Source: Acidiphilium iwatense (GTDB lineage: Bacteria > Pseudomonadota > Alphaproteobacteria > Acetobacterales > Acetobacteraceae). From it: a stretch of 38,122 nucleotides of DNA. Positions within the stretch are counted from its first letter, which is position 1. Each line of letters begins with the position of its first letter. The notes beneath the pieces were generated by a model. That model made no database searches and was not told where the DNA came from. It saw only the letters and a list, made by a program, of their open reading frames with translations. Both the position numbers and the translations under genes were made by a program. Location: NCBI RefSeq assembly GCF_021556475.1, contig NZ_JAKGBZ010000035.1, forward strand, positions 1 through 38,122. Reading direction: 5' to 3'. Shown here in pieces: positions 14,279 through 36,339 of the stretch.

Positions 14279-14283
14279 TTTCC

Positions 14284-14316
14284 GGTCTCCCCACTTGTCG
14301 TCAAGCAAGGGAGACC
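14284..14316. promoter_or_regulatory. Dyad covering the luxI ribosome-binding site
   Basis: GGTCTCCC (14284-14291) pairs exactly with GGGAGACC (14309-14316), and inside it CTTG and CAAG form a second short pair. The element lies in the 56 bases between luxR and luxI and contains the luxI Shine-Dalgarno sequence in one arm. It may be a LuxR-binding site, although it does not match the classical 20-bp lux box, or an RNA hairpin that limits luxI translation. Confidence 0.5.
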
Positions 14317-14334
14317 AGACTGAACCACCAGCGA

Positions 14335-16923: not shown

Positions 16924-17004
16924 GTGATAACTTTCTTTCTGGAATTTGAACAGCATGGCCGCTCCGCCAAACCGGGCGGCCGACGATCAGACTTGAACTC
17001 GCGG

Positions 17005-18390
17005 TCAGGGTAGCGTGGAGACGGCAGGCGCCCTGGCGGACGCGGTCGCGTGCGGGTTTGGTATGCCGTGTACGTTCTTGGCATCGCGTGGGGCGCCGTT
17101 GAACCACAGATTGCTCAGCACGGCCGACAGGGCGGCAAGAAAAATGCCGCTTTGCACGAAGGGGTGCAGGCCGAGTGGCACCGCCTGGAAAAACTTGTCC
17201 GCGACCACCGGGATCATCGAAATCCCCAAGCTGATCGCCACGATATATGAATTGTGCTGCTGCTTTTTGAAATCGATCGTATGCAGGATGCGGATGCCGG
17301 CCGCCATCACCATGCCGAACATCACGATACCGGCGCCGCCCAGCACGAATTGCGGGATCGAGGCGATGATGAACGATATTTTTGGTATCAGCCCCAACGA
17401 CAGAAGAATAAGGCCGGCGGTCGCGCAGACCCAGCGGCTGCGCACCTTGGTGATTTCGACCAGCCCGACATTCTGTGCGAACGAGGTGTGCGGAAACGAA
17501 TTGAACGTACCACCGATCACGGTGGCCAGACCGTCGACCAGAAGCCCGCGCCTGATATCCTTATCGTCGACCGGATGGTCCACGATCGTGCCGAGCGCCA
17601 TGAACATGCCGCTGGATTCGATGAACATGACCATCATCACCACCACCATCGTGGCGATCGCGACCGGGTGGAACGTCGGCATGCCGAAATGAAACGGCGT
17701 GATCACCCCGAACCAGCTCACCTTGTCGATTCCGTGCAGCGAAACCTGCCCCAGCAGCACCGCCTCGATAAACCCGAAGATTAACCCCAGCAGGACCGCG
17801 ATATTGCCGATGAACCCTTTGCCGTATTTCGCCAGCACCATGATGAACAGCAGCACGCTGAGCGAGACGATCAGGAATTTTGGCGCACCGTAATGCGGAT
17901 TGCCAACACCGCCGGCCGCCCAGTTGATGCCGACCGGGATCAGGTTGAGCCCGATCGCGGTAACCACGATGCCCTGCACCAGCGGCGGAAAAAATCGCAA
18001 CAATTTGCTTGCGAACGGCGCCAGCCCGATGGCGATGAACCCGGCCGCGATGGTCGCACCATAAATCCCTGGCAGGCCGAGTGCTGGATCGCCGATCATC
18101 ATGATCATCGGCCCAACCGCGGTGAAGGCAACTGCCATGATCACCGGCATGCGGATGCCGAATGGACCAAGCCCGACCGACTGGAGCAGCGAGCCGATGC
18201 CGCAGCAGAACATGTCGGCGCTGATCAGGTATCCGGTCTGCGCGGTCGACAGATGCGCGACTCCGGCAATGATGAGCGGCACTGCGACGGCACCCGCATA
18301 CATCACCAGAACATGCTGAAGCCCGAGGGTGAAAAGTCGCCCCGGTGGCAGCCAGGCGTTGATGCCGTTTTCAACCGTGAAGCTGGACAT
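17005..18390 (-). CDS. NCS2-family nucleobase:cation symporter
   Basis: A 461-residue inner-membrane permease with about 12-14 membrane segments. The family signature is clear: LQHVLVMYAG in the first segment, FIESSGMF in the eighth and the NAT signature QNVGLVEITKVRS. Members move uracil, xanthine, urate or related compounds with a proton or sodium ion. The gene heads a two-gene unit with the porin and diverges from the GntR regulator and Mo-hydroxylase genes. That suggests the imported purine- or pyrimidine-like compound is the substrate of those enzymes. The ATG has GGAGG in the upstream leader. The exact substrate is not determined. Confidence 0.9.
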   Translation of the reverse strand: MSSFTVENGINAWLPPGRLFTLGLQHVLVMYAGAVAVPLIIAGVAHLSTAQTGYLISADMFCCGIGSLLQSVGLGPFGIRMPVIMAVAFTAVGPMIMMIGDPALGLPGIYGATIAAGFIAIGLAPFASKLLRFFPPLVQGIVVTAIGLNLIPVGINWAAGGVGNPHYGAPKFLIVSLSVLLFIMVLAKYGKGFIGNIAVLLGLIFGFIEAVLLGQVSLHGIDKVSWFGVITPFHFGMPTFHPVAIATMVVVMMVMFIESSGMFMALGTIVDHPVDDKDIRRGLLVDGLATVIGGTFNSFPHTSFAQNVGLVEITKVRSRWVCATAGLILLSLGLIPKISFIIASIPQFVLGGAGIVMFGMVMAAGIRILHTIDFKKQQHNSYIVAISLGISMIPVVADKFFQAVPLGLHPFVQSGIFLAALSAVLSNLWFNGAPRDAKNVHGIPNPHATASARAPAVSTLP

Positions 18391-19955: not shown

Positions 19956-20819
19956 ATGCGCCGCTTCGAATATCATGAGCCAGCATCCTTGGCCGAGGCA
20001 TCCGAATTGTTGCTGTGCCTGGGTGAGGGCGCCTTTGTCTTTGCAGGCGGAACCGATCTTCTCGTCGAGATCCGCGAGCGCCTGCGCCGCGTCCATCACA
20101 TCGTCAACATCAAGCGCATTCCCGGGCTCGACGAACTCATGATTAGTGCCGAGGGGGGGATTTGGTTCGGCGCCTTGGTGACGGCCGGGCGGATCGAGCG
20201 GTCTAGCGAAATTGCGCGGCTCTATCCGAACCTGCACGACGCGGTCCGCAATCTGGGCTCCATACAGGTACGCAACCGGGCCACTGTGGTCGGCAATATT
20301 TGCCGCGCCTCGCCTTCGGCCGACACGATACCGCCACTGGTTGCCGACAGCGCGGAAATCGAGATCTTCGGCCCCGGCGGTACGCGCCGCACGGCCCTCG
20401 CGGAATTCTTCACTGGCCCCGGACGTACAACCCTTTCCCGCGGCGAGATAGCGACAGGGATCCGGGTGCCGCCGCCCGCGGAAGGCAGCGGGCGGGTTTA
20501 TCTGAAGCATGGACGTCGCAAGGCAATGGAGCTCGCCACCGTTGGCGTCGCCGTCAGCCTGAATCGGTCGAGAGGAACGTGCAGCGACATCAGCATTGCC
20601 CTGGGTGCGGTCGGCCCAACGGTGCTGCGCGCGCCGAAGGCCGAGGCGATGCTACGGGGTGCGGTACTCTCGCCAGAGATGATTTCCGCCGCAGCCAATC
20701 AGGCGATGGCCGAATGTACCCCGATCAGCAATGTCCGCTCGTCAGCCGACTATCGCCGCGCGATGGTCGGCGTCTTGACCCGTCGTGCCGTTACACGGGC
20801 ACTGGAGGCCACAGCATGA
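19956..20819 (+). CDS. Molybdenum hydroxylase FAD-binding subunit (CoxM/XdhB-like)
   Basis: A 287-residue medium subunit of the xanthine dehydrogenase family. The FAD-binding motif AGGTDLLVEIR (about 30-40) and the second motif TVVGNICRASPSAD are visible; the second is usually TIGGN, so one glycine is replaced. It passes electrons from the iron-sulfur subunit to an acceptor. The ATG has GGAAGG upstream. Its stop overlaps the start of the iron-sulfur subunit (ATGA). The subunit order M-S-L is that of CO dehydrogenase-type operons, but the large subunit resembles xanthine dehydrogenase types. Confidence 0.92.
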   Translation: MRRFEYHEPASLAEASELLLCLGEGAFVFAGGTDLLVEIRERLRRVHHIVNIKRIPGLDELMISAEGGIWFGALVTAGRIERSSEIARLYPNLHDAVRNLGSIQVRNRATVVGNICRASPSADTIPPLVADSAEIEIFGPGGTRRTALAEFFTGPGRTTLSRGEIATGIRVPPPAEGSGRVYLKHGRRKAMELATVGVAVSLNRSRGTCSDISIALGAVGPTVLRAPKAEAMLRGAVLSPEMISAAANQAMAECTPISNVRSSADYRRAMVGVLTRRAVTRALEATA

Positions 20820-21298
20820 AACAGCCTATAGAAATGTATATCAACGGCGAAGCACGCAGCGTTACGGTCGACCCATACCGCTCGCTTCTCGATACGCTCC
20901 GCGGCGAGGTTGGCCTGACCGGCACCAAGAAGGGCTGCGATGTCGGCGATTGCGGCGCTTGTACGGTGATCGTAGACGGCAGACCTCTCAACGCTTGCCT
21001 GATGCTGGCGGTGGAGGCCGGCGGCTGCCGGGTCGAGACGGTCGAGGGTCTTCAGGCCAGCCCGGACCAGCTGCATGTGCTGCAGGACGCTTTCATGCGT
21101 CATGGCGCAGCGCAGTGCGGCTTCTGCACCCCGGGCATACTTATGATGGCCAAGTCTTTGTTGGAGAACAACGCCAATCCCAGCGACGACGAGATCCGCT
21201 TCGGCTTGTCGGGCAACATATGCCGTTGCACCGGGTACACCAAAATATTCGACGCGATCCGAAGCGCGGCGCGACAATTGCAGGAGACCCCGGCATGA
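20816..21298 (+). CDS. Molybdenum hydroxylase [2Fe-2S] subunit (CoxS/XdhC-type small subunit)
   Basis: A 160-residue protein with both clusters of the family. The plant-ferredoxin-type site uses C41, C46, C49 and C61 (GCDVGDCGACT). The second site uses C101, C104, C136 and C138 (CGFCTPG and ICRCTGY). All eight cysteines are present. It carries electrons from the molybdenum centre to FAD. The start ATG overlaps the preceding stop by four bases, and its own stop overlaps the next start by four, so the three subunits are translationally coupled. Confidence 0.94.
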   Translation: MKQPIEMYINGEARSVTVDPYRSLLDTLRGEVGLTGTKKGCDVGDCGACTVIVDGRPLNACLMLAVEAGGCRVETVEGLQASPDQLHVLQDAFMRHGAAQCGFCTPGILMMAKSLLENNANPSDDEIRFGLSGNICRCTGYTKIFDAIRSAARQLQETPA

Positions 21299-23610
21299 AC
21301 AAGCCGCACGTTCCCGTCGAAGCGCGGCGCGCCTTTACCATCGTCGGGCAAAGCGTCCGGCGCAACGATGTCCTCGAAAAGGTCACGGGTGAGGGGCTTT
21401 ACACCGCCGACATCAACCGGCCGGGCCTTCTGTTCGGCAAGATCAAGCGCTCCAACGTCGCCCACGCCAAGATTTCTCGCATCGACACCTCGAAGGCGCT
21501 GGCCCTGCTTGGAGTAAAGGCGGTGCTTACGCACGAAGACGTCCCCCGTTTCCTGCATTACGGTTCACCGCACCCACGATCAGCCTCCTGCACACGCGAC
21601 CAGTACATCTTGGACGACAAGGTACGGTTCTGGGGGGAGGGCATTGCCGCCGTTGCCGCGACCAGCGAGGAGATCGCTGACGAGGCGCTCGACCTGATTG
21701 AGGTGGATTACGAGGAGTTGCCCGGTGTCTTCGACATCGACTCGGCCCAGGCACCAGGCGCACCGCTGATCCACGAGGTCGGGCCTGGTAGCAATCTTGT
21801 TCTGCCTCCCGTGCGCGTAGAACGCGGCGATGTGGAGAACGGCTTCGCCGAGGCCGACTTCGTGCTCGAAGGCGTGTTCGAGGGCGGCCGCCCGGTGCCC
21901 GCTTACATGGAACCCAATGTCTGCATGGCAGACTGGGATGGGTCTAATAAGCTAACATTCTGGACCTCGACCCAAACCGCCTTCATGGTGCGCGGAAGTC
22001 TGGCGGAAGTGCTCGGTCTTCCGCTCAACAAAGTACGGGTGCTCGTCGATCACATGGGCGGCGGCTTTGGTGCTAAGCAGGATCTGTTTCAGCATGAATA
22101 TCTCTGCGCGCTGCTGGCACGACAGACGCGGCGTCCGGTGCGCATGGAATTCACCCGCGCCGAAACTTTTATCGCCGGACGCTCGCGCCATCCCTGCCGA
22201 ATATTGTTGAAACAGGGGTTCCGGAAGGACGGGACAATCTGCGCGCGCGATATGAAGATCATCTACGAATCCGGTGCTTACGGCTCGCACAGTCCCGGCG
22301 TCACCACCGTCGGCACCAATGCCGCCACCTCGCTTTATCGGTGCGAGAATGTCCGATTGGAGGGCTGCGCGGTCTATACCAACACACCCATCGCAGGTGC
22401 CTTCCGAGGCTACGGCGTGGTCCAGGCCTACTATGCGCTCGATATCCAGATGGACGAGGCGGCAGAACGTTTGGGCATGGATCCGGCGGAACTGAAACTG
22501 AAAAACGCGGTGCGCGAGGGCGACATTGCGCCCTCTGGTCATCCGATCGTCGGGCGCGGACTCGAAGCCTGTCTGAAGCACGGGATTACCGCCTTTGACT
22601 GGATTGCCAAACGCACCGAGACGCCGCGCAACGATCCGGCTCAGCCGGCGATCCGGCGCGGCTGGGGGGTAGGCTGCGAGATGCATGGCTCAAGTGCCTA
22701 CCCGGGGATCCGCGAGCAGGGCAATGCCACGGTCAAGATGAACGAAGATGGCAGCGTGACCCTTCTGACAGGTGCGGCGGGGCTTGGTACCGGGGCGCAC
22801 ACGGCGCTGGCGCAAATCGTGGCGGAAGAGCTTGGCGTCACCTTCGAAAGCGTCTCGGTCGTGCATGGCGATACCGATGTCGTTCCCTGGGATATTGGCG
22901 CTTTCGCTAGCCATACGACTTATCTGGTGGGGTCGGCTGCGAAGATTGCGGCGGGCAAGCTGCGTGCCGCGGTGCTTGCGAGGGCAGCGGAGAAGCTTCA
23001 GACGCCAACAGAGGCGTTGGATATGGTGGCGGGTAGGATATTCATCGCCGACGCTCCCGATCGCGGCCTGACGGTGGCCGATGCGATGGGGCCGTCAAAG
23101 GGCATCCCGGCAGATCACCTGATCGAGACGGGTAGTTACACACCCACAAAATCTTATTCCTTCGCGGCGCATTTCGTCGAGGTCGCCGTGGATATCGAGA
23201 CAGGATTGGTGGACGTGCGCCACGTCATGCCTGTGCATGACGTCGGCCGGGTGATCCACCCGATCGCGGCGGCCGGGCAGATCGAGGGCGGCATCCAGCA
23301 AGGCATTGGCCACACGCTGACCGAAGACTACCTCATCGACCGTACCAACGGCCGCTCACTCAACGCCGGGCTTGTCGACTACAAGATGCCGCTATCGATG
23401 GACATGCCCAAGATTGAGACGGTAATCCTCGAGGCCGCTCCTGACCCTGGCGGCCCCTGGGGCGCGAAAGGCGTAGGCGAAGATCCAATCATCGCCATCG
23501 GCCCTGCCATCGCGAACGCCATTCACGACGCGATTGGCGCGCGCTTCCACCACTATCCAATCACCCCTGAGGACATCCTTTGCGCCCTCGCGGCCCAGAA
23601 GAAAGAATAA
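21295..23610 (+). CDS. Molybdenum hydroxylase large (molybdopterin) subunit
   Basis: A 771-residue catalytic subunit that would hydroxylate an aromatic N-heterocycle or aldehyde with water as oxygen donor. The Mo-cofactor motif GGGFGAK is at 255-261, the active-site arginine motif AFRGYG at about 369-374 (R371), and the catalytic glutamate in GAKGVGED at E729. The residue after GGGFGAK is Q262, where purine-type xanthine dehydrogenases have glutamate. A substrate other than xanthine is therefore likely. There is no CoxL-type active-site cysteine loop, so it is not a CO dehydrogenase. No XdhC-type sulfurtransferase or MobA-like chaperone gene is in the window. It is intact and coupled to the small subunit. 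Confidence 0.92.
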   Translation: MNKPHVPVEARRAFTIVGQSVRRNDVLEKVTGEGLYTADINRPGLLFGKIKRSNVAHAKISRIDTSKALALLGVKAVLTHEDVPRFLHYGSPHPRSASCTRDQYILDDKVRFWGEGIAAVAATSEEIADEALDLIEVDYEELPGVFDIDSAQAPGAPLIHEVGPGSNLVLPPVRVERGDVENGFAEADFVLEGVFEGGRPVPAYMEPNVCMADWDGSNKLTFWTSTQTAFMVRGSLAEVLGLPLNKVRVLVDHMGGGFGAKQDLFQHEYLCALLARQTRRPVRMEFTRAETFIAGRSRHPCRILLKQGFRKDGTICARDMKIIYESGAYGSHSPGVTTVGTNAATSLYRCENVRLEGCAVYTNTPIAGAFRGYGVVQAYYALDIQMDEAAERLGMDPAELKLKNAVREGDIAPSGHPIVGRGLEACLKHGITAFDWIAKRTETPRNDPAQPAIRRGWGVGCEMHGSSAYPGIREQGNATVKMNEDGSVTLLTGAAGLGTGAHTALAQIVAEELGVTFESVSVVHGDTDVVPWDIGAFASHTTYLVGSAAKIAAGKLRAAVLARAAEKLQTPTEALDMVAGRIFIADAPDRGLTVADAMGPSKGIPADHLIETGSYTPTKSYSFAAHFVEVAVDIETGLVDVRHVMPVHDVGRVIHPIAAAGQIEGGIQQGIGHTLTEDYLIDRTNGRSLNAGLVDYKMPLSMDMPKIETVILEAAPDPGGPWGAKGVGEDPIIAIGPAIANAIHDAIGARFHHYPITPEDILCALAAQKKE

Positions 23611-23614
23611 CGCC

Positions 23615-24670
23615 ATGGCAGTTCATGAAATCGAGGCCCGCAAGGTGCCCGTGACCATCCTCACCGGCTTCCTCGGCTCGGGCAAGACGACGCTGCTTAA
23701 CTACATCCTCACGGAGCGCCACGGTCACCGCATTGCCGTGATCGAGAACGAATTCGGCGAGGTCGATGTGGACAGCGACCTCGTCCTGGCTTCGGACGAG
23801 GAAATCTTCCAGATGCGAAACGGCTGCATCTGCTGCTTCGTCGATGTACGCAACGACCTGATCAACGTCATGAAAAAGTTGCTCTCCCGCAAGGAACAGT
23901 TCGACCACGTGATCATCGAGACGAGCGGCCTCGCCGATCCGACCCCGGTGGCCACCTCCTTTTTCGCCGACCGCGCGGTAGCCGACGCGGTACAGCTTGA
24001 CGCTATCGTGACGTTAGTCGATGCCGCCCATATCGACCGGCACCTTTTCGATCCAGTGCTGGATGGCAAAGACAATCAAGCCGTCGACCAAATCGTGGCC
24101 GCGGATCGGATTATCCTCAACAAGATCGATCTAGCAAACCCTACGGATCTGGACCGACTTGAGGCGGACCTGCGCATGCTGAACGAGACCGCCGGGATAC
24201 TGCGGTCAAGCTATGGCCGGGTGGATCTGGACACCATTCTCGGGATAAGTGGCTTCACCCCCTCCTACGTGGCCGAACGTGCAAAGCTTCTGAACCTGAG
24301 TCTCGATGACGACGACCACAATAAACATCACCACCACGCGCATATGCACGATCCGACGGTCGGGTCGGAATCATTCACCTATTCCGAAGATTTCGACTTG
24401 GACCGGCTTCAGGCGTTCCTTACTGCATATCTCGCGACTCACGGCGACGATGTGTTTCGCACCAAAGGTATCATCGCCATCGACCAGGACGAGCGGTTCC
24501 ACGTCCTTCAGGCGGTGCATCGCCTGATCGACCTGCGCCCCGATCACCCATGGCGGGGTGAGACGCGGCGTTCGAAAATTGTACTCATCGGCCGCAATCT
24601 CAATCGGGCGGCGCTTGAGGCGGGACTGAGAGCAAGTCTGGCACAGCCGAAACAGGCGGTCGCCACCTGA
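23615..24670 (+). CDS. CobW-family (G3E) GTPase metallochaperone
   Basis: A 351-residue P-loop GTPase with Walker A GFLGSGKTT (18-26), the metal motif CICC (C71, C73, C74), ETSGLADP (Walker B region) and NKID for guanine binding. A histidine-rich loop (DDDDHNKHHHHAHMHD) before the C-terminal domain can hold zinc or a similar ion. These proteins load metal into client enzymes. It starts four bases after the large Mo-hydroxylase subunit with GAAAGAA upstream. The most likely clients are the metal-dependent amidohydrolases downstream, which is inference from neighbourhood. Confidence 0.9.
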   Translation: MAVHEIEARKVPVTILTGFLGSGKTTLLNYILTERHGHRIAVIENEFGEVDVDSDLVLASDEEIFQMRNGCICCFVDVRNDLINVMKKLLSRKEQFDHVIIETSGLADPTPVATSFFADRAVADAVQLDAIVTLVDAAHIDRHLFDPVLDGKDNQAVDQIVAADRIILNKIDLANPTDLDRLEADLRMLNETAGILRSSYGRVDLDTILGISGFTPSYVAERAKLLNLSLDDDDHNKHHHHAHMHDPTVGSESFTYSEDFDLDRLQAFLTAYLATHGDDVFRTKGIIAIDQDERFHVLQAVHRLIDLRPDHPWRGETRRSKIVLIGRNLNRAALEAGLRASLAQPKQAVAT

Positions 24671-25258: not shown

Positions 25259-26185
25259 ATGATCATCGATCTGAGCTGTTATCCGACAGATCTTGTCGAC
25301 CTTGCCTGGCGCCACGACGGCGAACCGTTCACCGGCGACCGGCTTTTGAAGATGATGAACGGCCCTTATATCGTGAACGGCAAGCCGCGCCGGATCGACA
25401 AGGCCTTCATCCAGCCGCCGCAGGGCAACACCATCTATACTGACGGGCTCGGCGATCTAACCGGCAAAGCCGCGATCCGACAATACATGGCCTATACTGA
25501 GAAGATGGTGACTGAACATCCCGACCGCTTTCTGGGCTGTTTCGTCTACAACCCGCGCTATGGCACCCAGAACGGCGCCGAAGAAATCGAACGTTATGCC
25601 AATGAGTTTGATTTCAAGATGGTGCAGTTGCAGGCCAATATGCATGCCTACCGGCCCGACCGGGCGCTCGACTGGTTGCGCCCGGCGATGCGGAAATGCG
25701 CCGACCTAGGCCTGATGGTGAAAGTACATACGGGCGACGGGCCCTATTCGATCCCGACCGAGTTCTACCCGATCATCCGCGAGTTCCCGGAGGTCAACTT
25801 CATCCTCGCCCACTTCGGCGTGCAGACTGGCGGCGTGTACGTCTTCGAGCCGTTCCAGATGGCGATGGACGCACCCAACGTCTATGTCGAGTCCGGCTGG
25901 TGCCTGCAGTCACGGATCGTGGAATTCGCCAAGGAACTGCCGAAACATAAGATCCTGTTCGGCACCGACACGCCTCCGAACGAGCCTGGCATGTGGCTGC
26001 GGCTTCTGGAGGTGCTTTGCCATGAACCGCCTCAGGGCCTCAATCTCGACGAGGGCACGCTCGAAGATTACCTCGGCAACAACGTCGCCCGGATGATCGG
26101 GCTGGAAACCACCCTGCCGCCTGCCACTGTCGCTGAGGCGGAGGCTTATCTCCGCGGCCAGGACATCGCGCTCGAGACCGCCTGA
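25259..26185 (+). CDS. Amidohydrolase-2 family paralogue lacking the HxH motif
   Basis: A 308-residue TIM-barrel protein of the ACMSD/amidohydrolase-2 family, strongly similar along its full length to the next gene. The later metal and catalytic residues are kept: H157 (VHTGDG), H185 (LAHFGVQTGG) and D237 (FGTDTPP). The beta-1 HxH is gone: where the partner has DTHLH (H6, H8) this protein has DLSCY (S6, Y8). A second change is QLQAN for KLHAN. It may be a catalytically inactive partner of a heteromer, use another metal site, or have a different reaction. AGGAGA stands five bases before the ATG at 25259. It heads the operon with the paralogue, UbiD and UbiX. Confidence 0.88.
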   Translation: MIIDLSCYPTDLVDLAWRHDGEPFTGDRLLKMMNGPYIVNGKPRRIDKAFIQPPQGNTIYTDGLGDLTGKAAIRQYMAYTEKMVTEHPDRFLGCFVYNPRYGTQNGAEEIERYANEFDFKMVQLQANMHAYRPDRALDWLRPAMRKCADLGLMVKVHTGDGPYSIPTEFYPIIREFPEVNFILAHFGVQTGGVYVFEPFQMAMDAPNVYVESGWCLQSRIVEFAKELPKHKILFGTDTPPNEPGMWLRLLEVLCHEPPQGLNLDEGTLEDYLGNNVARMIGLETTLPPATVAEAEAYLRGQDIALETA

Positions 26186-26223
26186 TCGCGTGGACTGGGA
26201 CCAAATACCAACAGGAGACGACA

Positions 26224-27165
26224 ATGATTATCGACACCCACCTGCACCCGACGAACCTCGTGGACGAAGCTTGGCGGCATACGGGCTCGCCGTTCAACGG
26301 TGAGCGAATGCTGAAGCTTATGGATGGCCCCTACATGATCAACGGCAAGCCGCGCCGGATCGACATGGGCTTCATTCAGCCACCGCCGGGTAACACCGGC
26401 TACCGTGACGGCAACCGCATGGGCCGCGATGGGATCCGTGACTATATGTCCTACATCGCGGAACTGTGCCAGAAATACCCTGACCGCTTCATCGGCAACT
26501 TCACCTTCAACCCACGCTGGGGTCCCGAGAACGGCGCGGCAGAGCTGGAATTCCACGTCAAGGAATACGGCTTCAAGATGCTGAAGCTGCACGCCAACAT
26601 GCACGGCTACCGGCCCGACCGGGCGCTGGAATGGCTGCGCCCGGCGATGAAAAAATGCGCTGAACTCGGCGTTGTGGTGCTGATCCACACCGGCGATGGG
26701 CCCTACACGATCCCGACGATGTTCTACCCGATCATCCGGGAGTTTCCGATGGTCAACTTCATCATTGGCCATTTCGGTATCCAGACCGGAGGCAACTACT
26801 CTTTCGAATCCTTCTGGATGGCAATGGACACACCGAACGTCTATTGCGAATCTGGCTGGTGCTTCCAATCGCGGATAGTCGAATTCGCGAAGCAATTGCC
26901 CAAGCACAAGATTGTATTCGGCACGGATTCGCCTCCGAACGAGCCGGGCATGTGGCTGCGTGAGCTTGAGGTTCTGTGCCAAGAGCCACCCCACGGCATG
27001 AACCTTTCGGAAGAGGATCTGGAAGGCTACCTAGGCAACAACATCGCGAAGCTCGTGGGGATCGCCCCGACTCTGCCGCCCGCAAACCTCCAGGAAGCGA
27101 AGGCGCGCCTCAAGGACACCTATGCCGGGCTGAACCGCGCCACCAACCGGCTGGTGAACGCCTGA
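26224..27165 (+). CDS. Amidohydrolase-2 family metal-dependent hydrolase or decarboxylase
   Basis: A 313-residue TIM-barrel enzyme of the family that includes ACMS decarboxylase, gamma-resorcylate decarboxylase and iso-orotate decarboxylase, along with true hydrolases. The metal site is complete: H6 and H8 (DTHLHPT), H155 (IHTGDG), H183 (IGHFGIQTGG) and D235 (FGTDSPP). It should bind one divalent metal and act in the cytoplasm. The gene follows its paralogue by 38 bases with AGGAGA upstream. Neighbours suggest ring cleavage or decarboxylation of a hydroxylated N-heterocycle. The reaction itself cannot be told from sequence. Confidence 0.88.
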   Translation: MIIDTHLHPTNLVDEAWRHTGSPFNGERMLKLMDGPYMINGKPRRIDMGFIQPPPGNTGYRDGNRMGRDGIRDYMSYIAELCQKYPDRFIGNFTFNPRWGPENGAAELEFHVKEYGFKMLKLHANMHGYRPDRALEWLRPAMKKCAELGVVVLIHTGDGPYTIPTMFYPIIREFPMVNFIIGHFGIQTGGNYSFESFWMAMDTPNVYCESGWCFQSRIVEFAKQLPKHKIVFGTDSPPNEPGMWLRELEVLCQEPPHGMNLSEEDLEGYLGNNIAKLVGIAPTLPPANLQEAKARLKDTYAGLNRATNRLVNA

Positions 27166-27269: not shown

Positions 27270-28655
27270 ATGACCACCGCCGTATCCCACTTTCATCCCC
27301 AAGACGTCCGACGATTCCTAGCAGACTACCGCGCCGCACATCCGGAGGACGTGCTAACCATTGCCGACGAGGTGTCGGACGATCAGGACATTACGGCGAT
27401 GATCTGGCAGCTTGCCGCCGAGGGACGCGCGCCGGTGCTGGAACTGAATCGCGTGACGAACCATATCGGACCTGTCGTCACCAACATCTTCGGCTCGCGC
27501 AGTCGGATCGCGCGCATGTTCGGCACCACCGAGAATCGGTTGCACCAGGCATACCAAGCCGCCGCCCGCCGGGCCTGCCCGCCCGAAGACGTAACGGACG
27601 GACCGGTGGCGGAAGAGGTCATATCGGACCGGATCGACCTCAATTTGATTCCGATGCTCAGGCATTTCCAGACCGATCGCGCGAAATACATCACGAGCGG
27701 TATCATCATCGGTGAGCATCCCGAAACCGGCGCCGGCAACCTCAGTTATCACCGGGCAATGATCAACTCACCCAACACACTGGCCACCAGCCTGCACTCA
27801 CGCGGACACTTGTGGCGCCTGATGAACATGGCAAAGGATGCCGGAAGACCGATGCCCGTGGCCATGGTGATCGGCGCGCACCCGCTGTTCATGATCGCGG
27901 CGTCGGCACGCCTCGCATTCGGCGAAGACGAGCGCGATATCGCGGGCGGCCTGCTGGGCGCGCCGCTCCAGGTTGTGCGCACGCCGCGACATGGCATCCG
28001 CGTGCCGGCGCAGGCCGAAATTGTGCTGGAAGGCGTGATCGACCCCGAAGCACATGTATCCGAAGGACCGTTCGGCGAATTTACGGGCTATTCCTCGGAC
28101 CGTTCCACCAACAACCTGTTCACAGTTCAGACAATCTTACGGCGTCGGGCGCCAATGCTGGTCAGTGTAGCGGGAGGCAATTCGGCGGAACACCTGAATC
28201 TCGGACGCGTGCCCCGCGAGGCCGAAATGGCAGAAAAGCTCAAGGCCCGCTTCCCCAGCGTGACGGCAGTGCACTATCCGGCCTCTGGGACGCACTTCCA
28301 CGCTTATGTGGCGGTCGATCAGCAGCGACCGGGCGAAGCGCGGCAGATCCTGGTAGGGCTTCTGGGGTGGGACCAGTATCTCAAGACCGTGATCGCGGTG
28401 GATTCTGATATCGATGTGACGCGCGACAGCGAAGTTCTCTGGGCGCTCGCCACCCATTTCCAGCCGCATCGCGACGTGATGGTGATCGAGGGGCTGCCGG
28501 GCAACGCGCTCGACCCGTCAGCCAGCGGCATCGGCACAACCTCACGGATGGGCCTCGATGCGACGCGCGGGCCCGATTTCCACGGCGTCCGGGCCGAGAT
28601 CTCGGAAGCCGCGAAGAGCCACGCCGCGCGTCTTCTGGCCGGGGTCCGCGGCTGA
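27270..28655 (+). CDS. ubiD: UbiD-family prenylated-FMN-dependent decarboxylase
   Basis: A 461-residue reversible (de)carboxylase. The catalytic Glu-Arg-Glu set is visible as R162 (SYHRAMI) and E265 and E270 (SEGPFGEFTGYSS), with the five-residue spacing seen in this family. It needs prenylated FMN, which the adjacent UbiX would make. Its place among catabolic genes, with its own UbiX, argues for a role on an aromatic or heteroaromatic acid and not in ubiquinone synthesis. GGAAG stands seven bases before the ATG. It follows the amidohydrolase pair after 104 bases. Confidence 0.9.
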   Translation: MTTAVSHFHPQDVRRFLADYRAAHPEDVLTIADEVSDDQDITAMIWQLAAEGRAPVLELNRVTNHIGPVVTNIFGSRSRIARMFGTTENRLHQAYQAAARRACPPEDVTDGPVAEEVISDRIDLNLIPMLRHFQTDRAKYITSGIIIGEHPETGAGNLSYHRAMINSPNTLATSLHSRGHLWRLMNMAKDAGRPMPVAMVIGAHPLFMIAASARLAFGEDERDIAGGLLGAPLQVVRTPRHGIRVPAQAEIVLEGVIDPEAHVSEGPFGEFTGYSSDRSTNNLFTVQTILRRRAPMLVSVAGGNSAEHLNLGRVPREAEMAEKLKARFPSVTAVHYPASGTHFHAYVAVDQQRPGEARQILVGLLGWDQYLKTVIAVDSDIDVTRDSEVLWALATHFQPHRDVMVIEGLPGNALDPSASGIGTTSRMGLDATRGPDFHGVRAEISEAAKSHAARLLAGVRG

Positions 28656-28674: not shown

Positions 28675-29280
28675 ATGATGAGCCGGGACATATCGCCAAG
28701 GCCGCGGATCGTTATCGGGATTTCCGGGGCATCCGGAGTGATCTACGGAATCCGGATTCTGGAGGTGCTGCGCGGCCGCGGGATAGAGACCCATCTGATA
28801 ATGTCCCGAGCGGCGCATCTGACACTCGCGTCGGAATCCCACTTGGCTCCGCGTCAGGTCGAAGCGCTGGCCAGCGTCACCCACAACAACAAGGACGTGG
28901 GAGCGGCCTGCGCCAGCGGATCATTCCACACGCTGGGCATGATAGTTGCTCCGTGTTCGGTCAAGTCGCTCGCCGAGATCGCTACCGGCACCACCTCGAC
29001 CCTGCTGTCGCGCGCCGCCGATGTGACGCTGAAGGAGCGCCGTCGATTGGTCCTGATGCTGCGCGAGACGCCGCTGCATCTAGGCCATATCCGCGCGATG
29101 GCAGCGGTCACGGAGATGGGAGGGATCGTCTATCCGCCAGTGCCTGCCTTCTACGCGAAGCCGCAGTCGGTGGACGAGATGGTGGATCACACGGTCGGTC
29201 GCGTCCTCGATCTCTTCGATCTCGATGTTGGTCTGGCGCATCGCTGGGATGGGATGCGCAAAGTAATCAGCACCCGCTGA
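28675..29280 (+). CDS. ubiX: UbiX-family flavin prenyltransferase
   Basis: A 201-residue enzyme that joins a dimethylallyl group to FMN to make prenylated FMN for UbiD. The family motifs are present: GISGASG (15-21), APCSVKSLAEIATG (with C94 to K97 and E101) and ETPLHLGHIRAM. GGAG stands nine bases before the ATG at 28675, and the gene begins 19 bases after ubiD. It is the last gene of the operon, 23 bases from the convergent LysR gene. Confidence 0.93.
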   Translation: MMSRDISPRPRIVIGISGASGVIYGIRILEVLRGRGIETHLIMSRAAHLTLASESHLAPRQVEALASVTHNNKDVGAACASGSFHTLGMIVAPCSVKSLAEIATGTTSTLLSRAADVTLKERRRLVLMLRETPLHLGHIRAMAAVTEMGGIVYPPVPAFYAKPQSVDEMVDHTVGRVLDLFDLDVGLAHRWDGMRKVISTR

Positions 29281-29303: not shown

Positions 29304-30200
29304 TCAGCTTCGCCAAGGTGTCGCGGCAAGCAAGAACTCCTTCATCCGATGGGCCGCGGGTGAAAGGATGTGCACGCGGTTTTGCAGCACTGAGACGTCG
29401 CGACTTATCGATGGCTCCACGAGTTCAATAGCCTTCACGTCGACGACCGGGGCCAGTTGTCGCGAATTCTCCGGCAGGACAGCAACCCCCAGCCCAGCCG
29501 CGATCATGCTGATCGCCGTCGTCGAAAAGCGCACCTCGTAAGCCGGTCTTACCGGAGTGCCCGCCGCAAGCAGCGCCCGTTCGACGAGGTCGCGCAGCGG
29601 ATTTTCCTGCGCCAGACCGATGAGATTTTCCCCGGCCAGTTCGGCCCACCGGATGCTCTTGCGCCGTGCAAAGCGATGGTCCGCGCGACAGACCAAAGTC
29701 AGCCTGTCACGCATGACGTGAGACGCGACGATTTCCGGATCGTCGCTGGAGACAGTCCCGATAGCCAGATCGACTTCGTTGCGTTTCAGCGCTGGGCGGA
29801 TTTCCTCCTCCGGCATGTCGCGCACAACGACGGATATTTCTGGATATCGTTCGGTAAAGCGGGCTATCGCTGGCGGCAGGATGGTCGCGGCAAGCACGAT
29901 GGCGGAGGCGATCGTCACGCGGCCACGCTGCAGAGTGGCCAAATCATGAATGGCCCCCACCGCTATTTCGAGATCCGCCATGATCTTCTTGGCCTGCGGC
30001 AAGAATTCCCTTCCCGCACTGGTCAGGCTCACCATACGGGTGTGGCGGTCAAACATTCGGTGCTTGAGTTCAGTCTCCAGTTCCTTGATCAAGATGCTGA
30101 CTGCGGATTGGGTCAGACCAATCTGGCCGGCGGCCAGATTGAAGCGCCCGAGTTCGGCCACCGCCACGAAAGCCTTGAGCTGCCGAAAGGTTACATTCAT
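29304..30200 (-). CDS. LysR-family transcription regulator
   Basis: A 298-residue regulator with an N-terminal winged helix (about residues 3-60: FRQLKAFVAVAELGRFNLAA, LTQSAVSILIKELE) and a substrate-binding domain of two lobes. The start ATG at 30200 has GAGGGGG six bases upstream; earlier starts at 30206 and 30215 overlap that site. It converges with the UbiX operon and lies behind the ABC importer operon on the same strand. It may control either. No clear T-N11-A site could be tied to a target. Confidence 0.9.
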   Translation of the reverse strand: MNVTFRQLKAFVAVAELGRFNLAAGQIGLTQSAVSILIKELETELKHRMFDRHTRMVSLTSAGREFLPQAKKIMADLEIAVGAIHDLATLQRGRVTIASAIVLAATILPPAIARFTERYPEISVVVRDMPEEEIRPALKRNEVDLAIGTVSSDDPEIVASHVMRDRLTLVCRADHRFARRKSIRWAELAGENLIGLAQENPLRDLVERALLAAGTPVRPAYEVRFSTTAISMIAAGLGVAVLPENSRQLAPVVDVKAIELVEPSISRDVSVLQNRVHILSPAAHRMKEFLLAATPWRS

Positions 30201-30334
30201 CCGCATCCCCCTCACACAGAGCGGTTTTCAGACCAATATTTGATCCAAGCCTACTATGGACACAGATAATCATTTTATGAAATAAAGAATTCTCGGGGCT
30301 GTTTCGAATTTGACCAGCATGACAGAAGCCCACA

Positions 30335-31879
30335 CTATCCCGTTGCCGCCGCCAGCCGCGCCGCCTCCGCGGTGTTGCCAGCCATGAGAAGCCCTAGTTC
30401 CTCCAGCCGCCCACGATCCGGAGGGAGTTCACCGACCAAGCGGCCGCCGAACATTACAAAAATCCGGTCGCAAACGGCTAACAACTCTTCAAGCTCGGTC
30501 GAGATCAGTAAAATTGCTCGCCCCGCAACTTTCTGGCGCAGCACCTCCTGCATGACGAACTCAATGGCTCCGATGTCGATGCCTCGCGTCAATTGATTGA
30601 TCAGCAGGAGATCAGGGTTGCGGGCGAGCTCACGGGCGACGACCAGCTTCTGCTGATTGCCGCCTGATAAATTCCGGATCGCTACGTCCTCGTGCGACGC
30701 CTTGACCTGGAATTGCCGCATGAGCTCGCGTGTGTGTGCCGCTATCGCCCCGAAGCGCAACAATCCGCGCGTGGCAAACGGAGGATCGGTGTAGCGATGC
30801 AGAATAACATTCTCGGCCAATGACAAGGACAGGACGATACCCATCTTGTGGCGGTCTTCCGGTATGTGTGCAAGCGGCAGCCGCCTGACCGCTGTCGAGC
30901 ACATTCCGGTGACTTCCTTGTTGTTCAGCTTGATGCTGCCCGATTTAGCCGGCAGTAGCCCCGCCAAAGCCAGCGCCAGTTCGCTTTGGCCGTTGCCCGA
31001 AACGCCGGCGATGCCGACGATTTCTTTCTGTCTTACCTCGAAAGACACGTCTCGAACAGCGGGCCGCTCCAATTCGTTGTTACAGGAAAGCCCGGTGACC
31101 GACAGGACGACTTGCCCGCACTCGACTGGCTCGCGCGGCAATTCCATCAGCACATCGCGCCCGACCATCAATCGCGCAAGCTCGCGCGGGCTGGTCTCGG
31201 CGGTCTTCACCGTGCGAACCACCCGTCCGTCGCGCATAATGCTCACTCGGTCGCTAACCCGCATCACTTCATCGAGTTTGTGCGAGATGAAAATTACGGT
31301 CTTGCCGTCGGCGACGAGATCGCGCAGGAGAAGCAAGAGGCGATCTGTTTCCTGGTGCGTCAACACAGCCGTCGGTTCGTCGAGAATCAAAACGTCGATC
31401 CCCTGGAACAGGACTTTCAAGATCTCCACGCGCTGCTGCTGGCCCACGGAAAGATCCTCGAGGAGAGCATCCGGCTGGACGTCGAGCCCATAGCGATCAC
31501 TCAACGCCCGGATGCGGTCGCACAGTTCGCTCCGATCACGGATAAGGCGCAGCGGTGAGCCCTGGCCGAGCATGTAGTTCTCGGCAACCGTCAAGTTATG
31601 CACGAGCATGAAATGCTGGTGCACCATGCCGATCCGGTGCTGGATTGCCTCGCGCGGCGATCCGAGTTTCAGCGGCGCTCCCTTGAAAACGATTGATCCC
31701 TCGTTCGGCGCCAGTACACCGCACAATATGTTCATCAAAACGCTTTTCCCGGCCCCGTTTTCCCCCAGCAGGGCATGGATCTCATTCTCGGCCACTTCAA
31801 GCGTAGCGCCCGCGCTGGCCACAACGGAGCCGAAGCGCTTATGGATATTCTCCATCTTGAGGAAAATCTCAGTATTCAT
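30335..31879 (-). CDS. BMP-type ABC importer, ATP-binding protein (two NBDs)
   Basis: A 514-residue double nucleotide-binding protein. The first domain has a full Walker A GENGAGKS (39-46), the signature LSVGQQQR (143-150) and Walker B LILDEP. The second has a degenerate Walker A (GVSGNGQSE, 292-300), as is normal for the YufO/RbsA-like nucleoside importers, and a signature LSGGNQQK. It drives uptake by the two adjacent permeases. It is the last gene of a five-gene minus-strand operon and starts 11 bases after the second permease. Confidence 0.92.
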   Translation of the reverse strand: MNTEIFLKMENIHKRFGSVVASAGATLEVAENEIHALLGENGAGKSVLMNILCGVLAPNEGSIVFKGAPLKLGSPREAIQHRIGMVHQHFMLVHNLTVAENYMLGQGSPLRLIRDRSELCDRIRALSDRYGLDVQPDALLEDLSVGQQQRVEILKVLFQGIDVLILDEPTAVLTHQETDRLLLLLRDLVADGKTVIFISHKLDEVMRVSDRVSIMRDGRVVRTVKTAETSPRELARLMVGRDVLMELPREPVECGQVVLSVTGLSCNNELERPAVRDVSFEVRQKEIVGIAGVSGNGQSELALALAGLLPAKSGSIKLNNKEVTGMCSTAVRRLPLAHIPEDRHKMGIVLSLSLAENVILHRYTDPPFATRGLLRFGAIAAHTRELMRQFQVKASHEDVAIRNLSGGNQQKLVVARELARNPDLLLINQLTRGIDIGAIEFVMQEVLRQKVAGRAILLISTELEELLAVCDRIFVMFGGRLVGELPPDRGRLEELGLLMAGNTAEAARLAAATG

Positions 31880-31890
31880 TTATCAGATCC

Positions 31891-32823
31891 TCAAGCTTTA
31901 TTGTAGGGAACGCCAAGGGTGCGCGGAGCATCCTGCTTGTTATGGACAAAGACAAGCGCAAGGATGGTCAAAATGTAAGGCATTGCCTGAAGGGCCTGGT
32001 AGGGAATCCCCAACGACGGTTGAGCCTGGAGTTCCAACTGCAGCGCATAGAAAAGCCCGAATATCAGGGACACGAAGAAAGCGCCAACCGGGGACCAGCG
32101 GGAGAAGACGACGACAGCGAGCGCGATGAAGCCGCGCCCGTCGGTCATGCCTTCCACGAACTGATTGACGTCGGCCAACGTCAAAAACGCACCGCCTAGG
32201 GCGGCCAGCGAGCTGCCGATCATGATTGCGCCATAGCGGTATAGTACCACGCTCCGCCCGGTGATAGCGACGGCCTCTGGATGGTCGCCGGTGGCGCGCA
32301 AGGTGAGGCCGAACGAGGTCGAGAACAGCACGAAGCGGGCCAAAAATGCAACGGCAAGGCTGAGATACACGATGATGTTCTGCTGAAACAACGCAACGCC
32401 GAAAAATGGCAAGCCGCTCAGGATCGGAATATGCACAGCCGGCATGTTCGGCACACCGCTTCCCGTATGCACGAAATAGGTACGGAAAAGAAAAGACGTC
32501 AGACCAAGGCCGAGAAGATTAAGCGCTACACCGACGACGACCTGGTTGGCTTTGATCGTAACCGTGAAGCAGGCAAAAAGCAGACCGGTGAGCATGCCCG
32601 CAGCAATTGCGGCCGTAAAGCCCAGAGCAAGGCTGCCAGTCAAATCGGTTGTCGCGAAGCCGACGAAAGCGCCAATCAGCATTGTGCCTTCGATGCCGAT
32701 ATTGAGCACTCCTGCCCGTTCGGTGAATATCTCGCCAACGGCGGCGTAAATGATGGGTGTCGCTGTCTGCCAGGCGGCGGCAAGCGTAACGGCTAGGAAG
32801 ACAAGAAGGTTGAAATGCTCCAT
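31891..32823 (-). CDS. BMP-type ABC importer, permease (YufQ-like)
   Basis: A 310-residue inner-membrane protein with about nine hydrophobic segments and the family cue GEIFTERAGVLNIGIEGTML near the N-terminus. The start at 32823 is set by AAGGGGGG six bases upstream and by the 11-base gap from the preceding permease stop. The frame is open far upstream of this ATG, but that part lies in the other permease gene and is not coding. It forms the channel together with the neighbouring permease. Confidence 0.92.
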   Translation of the reverse strand: MEHFNLLVFLAVTLAAAWQTATPIIYAAVGEIFTERAGVLNIGIEGTMLIGAFVGFATTDLTGSLALGFTAAIAAGMLTGLLFACFTVTIKANQVVVGVALNLLGLGLTSFLFRTYFVHTGSGVPNMPAVHIPILSGLPFFGVALFQQNIIVYLSLAVAFLARFVLFSTSFGLTLRATGDHPEAVAITGRSVVLYRYGAIMIGSSLAALGGAFLTLADVNQFVEGMTDGRGFIALAVVVFSRWSPVGAFFVSLIFGLFYALQLELQAQPSLGIPYQALQAMPYILTILALVFVHNKQDAPRTLGVPYNKA

Positions 32824-32834
32824 TTTACCCCCCT

Positions 32835-33941
32835 TCAGACCGCCGAGCGGCCGGCGCGCATTCCTAGCGCGCCGAACGCGACGACGGATAGGATTACCAT
32901 GCCTTCGATAACGAAGACCAGGACCTGCGGCACCTGTGAGTTCATCTGCATGAGCACAGAGCCTGCGCTCAGCACGGCAAAGAGAATGCCCGAAAAAATA
33001 GCGCCGATCGGACGGTTGTAGGCCAGAAGCGCGACCGCGATGCCGGTGAAGCCGTAGCCTGGCGAAATGTTCTGGTAAAGCCTGAAATCGACGCCGGCGA
33101 TCTGTATGGCGCCGGCCAGACCGGCCAGAGCGCCGCTGATGGAGATTGCCAGCACGACGCTGCGTCGCACGCTGATGCCGGCATAGCGGGCGGCGTGTGG
33201 ATTGATTCCGACAACCCGCAGCGCATAGCCCGCACTGCTCCTGAACAGAAACGCCTGCACGATGACGGCGAGCGCAATCGCGATGAGGATGCCGATATGC
33301 AAGCGCGTGTGCGGCAGAAGAATCGGCAGCCGCAATGCGTGTGGCAACTCTGTGGATTGCGGATACGTGACGCCGGCCTCCATCATGGGCCCGGTCACGA
33401 GATAGCTCGTCGCGATCGTAGCAATATAATTCAGCATGATGGTCGTGACGATCTCGCTGGCGTTGAAGTAGATTTTCAGAAGGCCGGCGATCGCTGCCCA
33501 GGCCGCTCCAGCAATGCTCCCTGCCGCAAGGATTAGCACTATGTGAAGTGGCGCGGGCAAACCGTTCAGATGAACTCCGAAAAAGGTTGCCGCGACCGCA
33601 CCGGCATAGTACTGACCTTCCGCGCCGATATTCCACATACTGCACCGGAAGGCCACGCATAGCCCGACGCCAATTAGGATCAGCGGTGTCGCAATCAGCA
33701 GCATTTCAGTAATGGAATGGATGTTGCGAAACACGCCACCGATCATCACGGTGAAAACGTCGAGGGCGTTGAAGCCGTTGATCGCGAGAAGCGCGGCGCC
33801 GGCGCACAATGCCACGAGAACAGCCGCGATGGGGAAGCCGATGGCGCGAAGCCTTTGCAAGGACCGTATACGGATGGACGTAGAGATGTCGTACAAATAC
33901 AGCTTCGCTGGCGCAGGCGGTCGAATGTCGATGTCGTCCAT
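32835..33941 (-). CDS. BMP-type ABC importer, permease (YufP-like)
   Basis: A 368-residue permease with a cytoplasmic N-terminal stretch of about 30 residues, then about ten membrane segments and the cue FRCSMWNIGAEGQYYAGAVA. This subfamily carries nucleosides and related heterocyclic compounds. GGTGGAG stands five bases before the ATG. It follows the binding-protein gene after a 74-base gap with a hairpin. Confidence 0.92.
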   Translation of the reverse strand: MDDIDIRPPAPAKLYLYDISTSIRIRSLQRLRAIGFPIAAVLVALCAGAALLAINGFNALDVFTVMIGGVFRNIHSITEMLLIATPLILIGVGLCVAFRCSMWNIGAEGQYYAGAVAATFFGVHLNGLPAPLHIVLILAAGSIAGAAWAAIAGLLKIYFNASEIVTTIMLNYIATIATSYLVTGPMMEAGVTYPQSTELPHALRLPILLPHTRLHIGILIAIALAVIVQAFLFRSSAGYALRVVGINPHAARYAGISVRRSVVLAISISGALAGLAGAIQIAGVDFRLYQNISPGYGFTGIAVALLAYNRPIGAIFSGILFAVLSAGSVLMQMNSQVPQVLVFVIEGMVILSVVAFGALGMRAGRSAV

Positions 33942-33975
33942 TAAGCTCCACCTTTCGGCAAGGTACGGAGGGACA

Positions 33976-33996
33976 GGCGCTGGACTCGCCAGCGCC
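33976..33996. terminator. Hairpin behind the binding-protein gene
   Basis: GGCGCTGG (33976-33983) and CCAGCGCC (33989-33996) form a perfect 8-bp stem with a 5-base loop. It lies between the binding-protein stop and the first permease. No T run follows. Such hairpins often protect the upstream message, giving more binding protein than permease. Confidence 0.5.
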
Positions 33997-34015
33997 CGGA
34001 GGGCGCAGGACGCAG

Positions 34016-34999
34016 CTAACCCGCCATCGTCTTGATCTGGCCTGCGATGATCTTGGACTTCACTTCGTCCACATATTTGCGGACGTCCTGCGGCACTGGC
34101 GTGGCGGCATTGTCGTTGTAGGTGAACCTGATGACATCGGGATCCCCAAGGCCAAAAGTCACATTCGAATGCGGGATCGAGGTGCCGTTTTTGATGCCGG
34201 TGACGACACGCACAATTCCGGCGCCGTAATCGGCGATGTAGGTGCCGAGAATGTTCTTGCCCGCGACCTTCGAGTAGTCGGTGTAAACGCTGAAGGTCTT
34301 GATTTGAGGGCCCGCCTCGTGCACCGCCAGATATACGCCGAGGCTGGCAGCATCGGCATCGGGTACGATGAAGTCCACGCCTTGTTTGATCATGCTGATG
34401 GCGGCTTCCTTCGCTGCCACCTCGTTTTCGAAACTCCCAATATAGACCCTGCCTATTCCGAAGCCGGGCTTGGTCGTCAGGGCGCCGTTGCGGAAGCCGC
34501 CAAACGCCTGGCTAATTGGCGGAATCTGCATACCACCGATGAGGCCAGCGGACTTGCCCATCTTCGCCGCGATCACGCCCATCAGATAGAAAGGCTGACT
34601 GCTGTCTAAGTTGATCCCGATAACCTTGCCCTGATGGATCGAGCTGGAGGAGATCAGAAAATAGGAGTCGGGATAGTCTTTGGCCACTGTCACGGCGGCA
34701 TCCTGAAATTCGAAGCCGTTGCCGAGGATGACCTGATAGCCCTGACTGGCATAATCCCTGAAGGCGCTCTCGAACGAAGCCGGGTCCTGCTGGAGTTCGA
34801 CGTAGCTCACCTTCGCGCCGAGCTTTTTCTTGACGGTCATCAGCGCATCGTAGGCGAGGCGATTCCAGCCGTTCTCGGCCACGCTGCCCGTCACCAGCAG
34901 GCCCATCTTGAATTCGGCCGCCGCATGGGCTCGGCCAATAAGCGTTGCAGTCGCAAGCGCACCGCCTGCCGCCAGAATCTGCCTGCGATTAACGATCAT
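34016..34999 (-). CDS. BMP/PnrA-family substrate-binding protein
   Basis: A 327-residue periplasmic binding protein of the basic membrane protein family (purine-nucleoside type). The N-terminus NRRQILAAGGALATATLIGR has a twin-arginine pair and a hydrophobic stretch ending in AHA-AA, so Tat or Sec export with signal-peptidase I cleavage is likely; there is no lipobox cysteine. Typical family text includes LVTGSVAENGWNRLAYDAL and the periplasmic-binding fold. The ATG has GGGAG six bases upstream and overlaps the hydrolase stop by four bases (ATGA). It delivers the ligand to the two permeases. Confidence 0.92.
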   Translation of the reverse strand: MIVNRRQILAAGGALATATLIGRAHAAAEFKMGLLVTGSVAENGWNRLAYDALMTVKKKLGAKVSYVELQQDPASFESAFRDYASQGYQVILGNGFEFQDAAVTVAKDYPDSYFLISSSSIHQGKVIGINLDSSQPFYLMGVIAAKMGKSAGLIGGMQIPPISQAFGGFRNGALTTKPGFGIGRVYIGSFENEVAAKEAAISMIKQGVDFIVPDADAASLGVYLAVHEAGPQIKTFSVYTDYSKVAGKNILGTYIADYGAGIVRVVTGIKNGTSIPHSNVTFGLGDPDVIRFTYNDNAATPVPQDVRKYVDEVKSKIIAGQIKTMAG

Positions 35000-36297: not shown

Positions 36298-36339
36298 CCC
36301 CAAGTCCTGATATTGGTAGCTTCACCAGAAGGTAGCGGT

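Follow-up and report, generated by a model that had tools for sequence, protein, structure and literature searches.

A conserved pair of PF04909 amidohydrolase paralogues, one lacking the beta-1 HxH motif, in a candidate pterin-type catabolic cassette

Introduction

The PF04909 amidohydrolase family counts more than 100,000 proteins and includes cofactor-free enzymes (PMC10811679). Two PF04909 paralogues make up AibH1H2, for which an alpha2-alpha'2 heterotetramer has been solved (PMC7782822, PMC10401708) and in which AibH1 is termed the auxiliary subunit (PMC12141560). The metal ligands given for AibH2 are D25, H27, H211, E265, D337 and H340, with D342 (PMC7782822, PMC12141560), and an acid at the D342 place is described as a mark of binuclear members (PMC7782822). 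Here, we analyse two adjacent PF04909 genes, named A and B, found in a 38,122-nucleotide stretch of Acidiphilium iwatense (contig NZ_JAKGBZ010000035.1; this whole stretch is called the window), the first of which has lost the HxH metal motif of strand beta-1. To our knowledge, the heteromeric use of two PF04909 paralogues is known from AibH1H2 only, and we know of no asymmetric partner for ACMSD and the related PF04909 decarboxylases. In the ACMSD site, four residues act as metal ligands. The cofactor-free type is presumably LigI, which is said to retain its barrel histidines.

The A/B locus resembles AibH1H2 in that two PF04909 paralogues with asymmetric metal sites lie side by side, one of them being auxiliary in AibH1H2, and the adjacency and co-occurrence of A and B recall the same arrangement. 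However, AibH1 and AibH2 share 28% identity and are both metal-binding, whereas A and B share 65% and the beta-1 ligands are missing from A. B also has HxH where AibH2 has D-x-H, and it lacks the Glu and the second His of the oxygenase set. With ACMSD, LigW, 2,6-dihydroxybenzoate decarboxylase and isoorotate decarboxylase, B has in common the fold and the HxH, His, His, Asp pattern. LigI-type enzymes indicate that the family can work without a metal, but A, unlike LigI, has replaced two barrel histidines and comes with B. We found no description of this gene pair in the literature searched. Since asymmetric PF04909 pairs are already known, our data suggest that what is new here is this particular pair, together with a candidate function drawn from its neighbourhood. 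It would be the second candidate heteromeric PF04909 pair after AibH1H2, widespread and tightly conserved, with a fixed loss of both beta-1 metal ligands in one partner.

Sequence and conservation of the gene pair

The products of A and B are identical at 200 of 308 residues (65%) and positive at 245 of 308 in BLASTP, which bears out the original prediction that the two genes are alike along their length. An AGGAG stretch lies upstream of the A start codon at 25259. Both proteins match PF04909 (Amidohydro_2; Pfam cut-off 26.4 bits), B with 170.5 bits over residues 3–280 and A with 126.7 bits over residues 82–282 only, a late beginning that is expected if the beta-1 motif has been lost in A. 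The motifs noted earlier were read correctly, namely H6/H8, H155, H183 and D235 in B, S6/Y8, H157, H185 and D237 in A, and QLQAN in A for KLHAN in B. The ACMSD-type pattern, i.e., HxH on beta-1, His on beta-5, His on beta-6 and Asp on beta-8, is complete in B, while A departs from it at the beta-1 HxH.

To see how general this is, we used the best 80 of 282 confirmed relatives from a scan of genome contigs; the state of the A motif was read in these 80 loci and in the window. S-C-Y stands at the motif site in all 80 related A genes, and HxH in none of them. The counter-case to the original prediction, a lone A gene with intact HxH, was not encountered in these loci. B follows A directly in 79 of the 80 loci, each time with H-L-H, and in the remaining locus the contig ends shortly after A. 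Other genomes with the same pair and the same S/Y replacement, for which the original prediction had suggested a search, are thus plentiful. With the window included, S6, C7, Y8, Q123, Q125, H157, H185 and D237 are found in 81/81 A sequences, and H6, L7, H8, K121, H123, H155, H183 and D235 in 80/80 B sequences. Across these sequences, 144 columns are at least 95% conserved and equal in A and B, and 23 are conserved but different; the fixed differences include S6/H6, C7/L7, Y8/H8, K48/M48, Q55/P55, Q123/K121, Q125/H123 and K155/L153 (A/B). Mean identity is 83% inside A, 90% inside B and 65% between A and B, and the split between the 81 A and the 80 B genes has a support of 1.0 in an unrooted tree.

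Gene A is a maintained gene under strong purifying selection. The median ratio of non-synonymous to synonymous substitution rates (dN/dS) is 0.047 for A and 0.027 for B in 20 hand-picked genome pairs, a few of which have a dS near 1. Divergence is about twofold faster in A than in B, with mean patristic distances of 0.46 and 0.23, respectively (400 random pairs each).

The pair is conserved as a pair across many proteobacteria. A 60-genome set of one genus has 29 carriers of the family, each with two strong matches next to each other. In the family of that genus, 84 of 398 genomes match at 1e-15, and 82 of these have at least two strong matches, the A gene being inferred from the match count for part of them; in one of the other two genomes A lies 516 bases from the contig end, which necessarily cuts the next gene, and the other has a weak match only. 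In the phylum, 4 of 397 genomes match, the window genome included, each with both genes; the window genome alone has the pair among 394 genomes of its order, where two others show a weak 31% match; and among the 40 nearest-kin genomes (its own included) the match is confined to its own. The pair is also found on many plasmids, including pSymB of S. meliloti. Plasmid matches to B have 80–95% identity in 91 of 142 records and less than 60% in 51, the weak ones reaching 29.3% at most among the matches listed, and this gap indicates that the family is discrete. The plasmid records and genome sets scanned showed no single-copy relative with an intermediate level of identity. Such a patchy distribution, together with the large number of plasmid copies, suggests horizontal movement. 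Taken as a whole, A and B almost certainly form an obligate functional pair.

Two observations concern single genomes. One genome (G747) carries two copies of the A/B pair, on contigs C3 and C4. The pair of the contig JAFKDC010000004.1, titled Enemella evansiae, nearly equals that of Mameliella alba (dN of 0.003 for A), and this contig is possibly mislabelled or contaminated.

Structure models and metal site

Single-chain AlphaFold2 models predict (beta/alpha)8 barrels of moderate confidence for both proteins, with a predicted local distance difference test (pLDDT) of 81.2 and a predicted template-modelling score (pTM) of 0.86 for A, and 80.3 and 0.84 for B. Foldseek matched them to LigW (LigW2), 2,6-dihydroxybenzoate decarboxylase, LigJ, ACMSD and isoorotate decarboxylase, and at ranks 40–50 the A model matched 8ful (AibH1H2) and 8sm6 (SfbO). 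These matches are loose, with template-modelling scores of about 0.6, root-mean-square deviations mostly of 5–8 Å and 10–19% identity in fold alignments to solved PF04909 relatives, and a profile search of the PDB from a sequence alignment gave nothing at 1e-6.

Judged by its ACMSD-type HxH, His, His and Asp, B would be a metal-dependent hydrolase or lyase. In classical binuclear amidohydrolases, a bridging lysine sits on strand beta-4, and K121 of B falls on the predicted beta-4 (residues 119–122); its metal site may therefore be mono- or binuclear. Of the four ACMSD ligands, A retains a single His and a single Asp, so that a normal metal site is unlikely there. A thus appears to be a partner that has given up the HxH and the lysine and retained most other conserved residues. 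By analogy, a heteromer or a shared active site is plausible. Besides AibH1H2, the precedent is 4ifk, whose PDB title describes a zinc decarboxylase of this family with essential arginines from the neighbouring subunit. On these grounds A and B probably associate physically, although we hold this less firmly than their functional pairing.

Gene neighbourhood

The neighbourhood was compared in 83 loci, i.e., the 80 relatives, the window, S. meliloti pSymB and a Ponticoccus plasmid, the relatives' loci spanning about 10 kb on each side or up to the contig end. A gene was counted as a cassette member at 33% identity and 55% coverage (Table 1).

Table 1. Positions of the A/B pair and of neighbouring genes in the window, with their occurrence in the 83 loci.
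Feature	Position	Strand	Occurrence	Remarks
NCS2 permease, PbuX xanthine-permease subfamily	17005..18390	-	67/83 (NCS2 permease)	
Molybdenum hydroxylase, flavin adenine dinucleotide (FAD) subunit	19956..20819	+		
Molybdenum hydroxylase, [2Fe-2S] subunit	20816..21298	+		
Molybdenum hydroxylase, molybdenum subunit	21295..23610	+		Below the cut-off of each of 13 NCBIfam models matched
CobW/COG0523 GTPase, probable metallochaperone	23615..24670	+	78/83	Start inferred
Gene A, PF04909 amidohydrolase paralogue without beta-1 HxH (S6, C7, Y8; Q123, Q125)	25259..26185	+	83/83	308 aa, start MIIDLSCYPTD
Gene B, PF04909 amidohydrolase with H6, H8, K121, H123, H155, H183, D235	26224..27165	+	82/83	313 aa, start MIIDTHLHPTN
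UbiD-family decarboxylase dependent on prenylated flavin mononucleotide (prFMN)	27270..28655	+	81/83	Best solved relative PtHmfF
UbiX flavin prenyltransferase	28675..29280	+	79/83	Reading frame open from 28558; start inferred from the beginning of the family match
LysR regulator, possible cassette regulator	29304..30215	-	24/83 (similar LysR)	
BMP-type ABC importer, possible pathway importer	30335..35047	-		ATPase 30335-31879 and binding protein 34016-35047 by Pfam
Cytosine-deaminase-like deaminase	34996..36303	-	20/83 (this type)	Other cassettes have the 2PAJ type

A molybdenum subunit of either of two types is found in 75 of the 83 loci. In the Pseudomonas locus L037, the other type (6009-9184, minus strand), which stands in place of the one resembling xanthine dehydrogenase (XDH), has a weak sub-cut-off match to a twin-arginine translocation (TAT) signal. 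Elsewhere in its genome, the window's host has a separate, true XDH, with 1229 bits against a cut-off of 849.5. The UbiD protein is nearest to PtHmfF (231 bits, and 141 for the next enzyme); HmfF belongs to the group of furan dicarboxylate decarboxylases (PMC8988006), and this proximity would suit a five-ring heteroaryl acid as substrate.

Judged by their position, the open reading frames between the ATPase and the binding protein of the BMP-type importer would encode its permeases. On S. meliloti pSymB, too, genes for a BMP protein and a permease lie next to the cassette, and this importer counterpart has sub-cut-off matches to NCBIfam models named putative B6 ABC transporter. As for riboswitch control, no Rfam match was obtained at the gathering threshold in the window.

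A deaminase of either type is present in 69 of the 83 loci, 2PAJ-like in 49 and cytosine-deaminase-like in 20, never both; this mutual exclusion follows lineage and may reflect inheritance only. For the L037 deaminase, the closest solved relative is 2PAJ (461 bits, and 297 for the next chain), which we take to be an isoxanthopterin deaminase of the Sargasso Sea group. Relatives of 8-oxoguanine deaminase from the Sargasso Sea are described as accepting isoxanthopterin and pterin-6-carboxylate (PMC5270733). Moreover, in the 60-genome set, an orthologue of the L037 deaminase (67% identity or more) is found in exactly the 29 carriers of the pair and in 0 of the 31 other genomes, a co-occurrence to which shared ancestry contributes.

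Proposed function and alternatives

An old bacterial route leads from isoxanthopterin through 7-oxolumazine, tetraoxypteridine and xanthine-8-carboxylate to xanthine. The conversion of tetraoxypteridine to xanthine-8-carboxylate was reportedly described by McNutt in the 1960s in Alcaligenes faecalis, as tetraoxypteridine isomerase or tetrahydroxypteridine cycloisomerase (Enzyme Commission number EC 5.5.1.3), and we know of no gene or sequence for it. This reaction would supply the step that is missing between the deaminase and molybdenum hydroxylase on one side and UbiD on the other, a link that we infer from the gene content. The model that we favour, tentatively and with more doubt than confidence in it as a whole, is that A and B are either the two subunits of a single enzyme or two enzymes whose joint step cannot be split, within a cassette for the catabolism of a pterin-like heterocycle. 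For the substrate taken by itself, a pterin type is about an even call.

In this model, the deaminase would take off the 2-amino group of isoxanthopterin to give 7-oxolumazine, which the dedicated molybdenum hydroxylase would convert to tetraoxypteridine. A and B would then open the pyrazine ring and close it again, yielding xanthine-8-carboxylate (EC 5.5.1.3), UbiD, with prFMN made by UbiX, would decarboxylate this compound to xanthine, and the housekeeping XDH would take xanthine onward. A and B are assigned to the isomerase step because, among the widely conserved cassette members, they are the ones that remain for it. Within the step, B may hydrolyse the lactam by a metal-bound water, A may complete the active site or help a metal-free ring closure, and CobW could deliver the metal of B. 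Lactam opening and imidazole closure are both amidohydrolase-type chemistry, and two related active sites, or a single site built by both proteins, would thereby have a reason to persist as a pair.

The most specific version of this proposal is that A/B is a tetraoxypteridine cycloisomerase acting as an asymmetric heteromer, whose metal subunit opens the pyrazine lactam and whose metal-free paralogue directs imidazole re-closure. This version is rather unlikely as it stands; under it, rhizobia, pseudomonads, Paraburkholderia and others would use the cassette to convert pterins to xanthine. A and B may encode the enzyme of this 1960s reaction, for which genes have been missing. If so, the locus would provide genes both for an old orphan enzyme and for the decarboxylation of xanthine-8-carboxylate, and its context proposes a defined reaction and a bacterial route that recycles pterins into the purine pool. 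The only mention of the EC 5.5.1.3 reaction that we found is a mass-spectrometry table in which both its compounds are named as putative assignments (PMC5941619).

Several observations weigh against the pterin model. The pathway and the A/B reaction are proposed from gene context, and we found no description of EC 5.5.1.3 or of its pathway in the literature searched. The characterised PF04909 folds near B, loose as these matches are, are mostly decarboxylases or hydratases and not cycloisomerases, and the molybdenum subunit is XDH-like in 30 loci and of the other type in 45. The deaminase is absent from 14 of the 83 loci, of which five stretches are shorter than 15 kb and nine are about 21 kb long; three of these nine are from Sinorhizobium/Ensifer, and the longer stretch of S. 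meliloti 1021 does have a deaminase. Among the 29 carriers of the 60-genome set, the orthologue of the L037 deaminase is separated from the pair by 6–16 kb in 26 genomes and sits on a different contig in the other 3; one of its 29 matches is only partial. At 1e-100, 35 of the 60 genomes match this deaminase, six of them being genomes without the pair that carry a 53–55% relative. The L037 deaminase falls in NCBIfam PRK12393, a model without a stated function (778.9 bits, cut-off 543), and its score with the model for 8-oxoguanine deaminase is 432, for a cut-off of 532. Xanthine/urate riboswitches have been reported upstream of PRK12393 genes (PMC7373994), which favours purines. Finally, the window deaminase is not of the 2PAJ type, its best matches being cytosine deaminases, and the sole 2PAJ-like match of the host is 42% identical and located elsewhere in the genome. 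In favour of the model, the bacterial pterin deaminases that have been cloned are grouped close to the cytosine deaminases (PMC9513972).

Two alternatives deserve equal weight, both improbable though not by much more than the favoured model. In the first, B is a decarboxylase of the ACMSD/isoorotate-decarboxylase type acting on a pterin or purine carboxylate (e.g., oxolumazine-6-carboxylate), with A as a structural or allosteric partner and UbiD responsible for a second decarboxylation. The ACMSD ligand pattern of B speaks for it, as does the presence of LigW2, 2,6-dihydroxybenzoate decarboxylase, ACMSD and isoorotate decarboxylase among the best folds, and the deaminases related to 2PAJ are described as taking pterin-6-carboxylate too (PMC5270733). 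However, it would place two decarboxylase chemistries in one short cassette and leave ring opening without a gene, and the retention of A would need a further explanation.

The second of these two makes A and B sequential enzymes that form no complex, B being a metal-dependent hydrolase and A a metal-independent PF04909 enzyme that works on the product of B. Such a division is consistent with the excess of columns common to both proteins (144) over those fixed differently (23), and cofactor-free enzymes of the family are documented (PMC10811679). Nevertheless, strict co-retention in a fixed gene order is also compatible with a complex, and A, which is devoid of two metal ligands and of the K121/H123 of B, offers no obvious replacement catalyst.

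Less likely again is a hydrolytic purine route resembling clostridial xanthinase, in which A/B would open the ring, UbiD would act on an aminoimidazole carboxylate, and deamination would follow. The cassette does bring together a xanthine-type permease, a decarboxylase and a deaminase, and the xanthinase pathway described in Clostridia and Bacilli combines hydrolytic purine ring opening with a subsequent decarboxylation (PMC12507026); the riboswitch-linked position of PRK12393-type deaminases (PMC7373994) points the same way. But 2PAJ is a closer relative of the L037 deaminase than the 8-oxoguanine deaminases are, a true XDH is already present in the host, and the cassette's own molybdenum hydroxylase would be superfluous for xanthine hydrolysis. 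By our reasoning, a xanthinase pathway should have no use for a molybdenum step after xanthine or for a deaminase of the isoxanthopterin type.

It is very improbable that A/B is a dinuclear oxygenase (ARO: AibH2, SfbO, PtmU3) built from two PF04909 paralogues like AibH1H2. The 8ful and 8sm6 matches of the A model and the alpha2-alpha'2 heteromer of AibH1H2 (PMC7782822) lend it some weight, as does the acid at the D342 place, since B reads D235-S/T-P-P-N-E/D and by spacing this acid is E240 in 60 of 80 sequences and D in 20 of 80. Compared by motif order, not by superposition, H8, H155, D235 and this last acid of B fit the AibH2 set, but D25, E265 and H340 are without counterpart, B having H6, H183 and P238 at these places. 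With three of the six AibH2 ligands missing, we judged an oxygenase role for B unlikely. None of the 28 proteins from the window and L037 that were scanned with Pfam was recognised as a Rieske ferredoxin or a reductase partner.

That A is a decaying duplicate can be ruled out for practical purposes, as the original prediction had argued, because the loss of two metal ligands and the twofold faster divergence of A are outweighed by the median dN/dS of 0.047 (20 pairs), the invariant S6-C7-Y8 of all 80 relatives and the 83% mean identity within A.

Other genes of the window

A protein of the arylmalonate decarboxylase/Asp-Glu racemase family is encoded at 36584-37312 on the plus strand; with relatives in 12 of the 83 loci, it possibly serves a later pathway step. 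On the minus strand, genes for a LuxI-type autoinducer synthase and a LuxR-type receptor lie side by side at 13646-15138. An OprB porin gene comes next (15553-16956), and an open reading frame of 1512 amino acids occupies 327-4865 on the minus strand.

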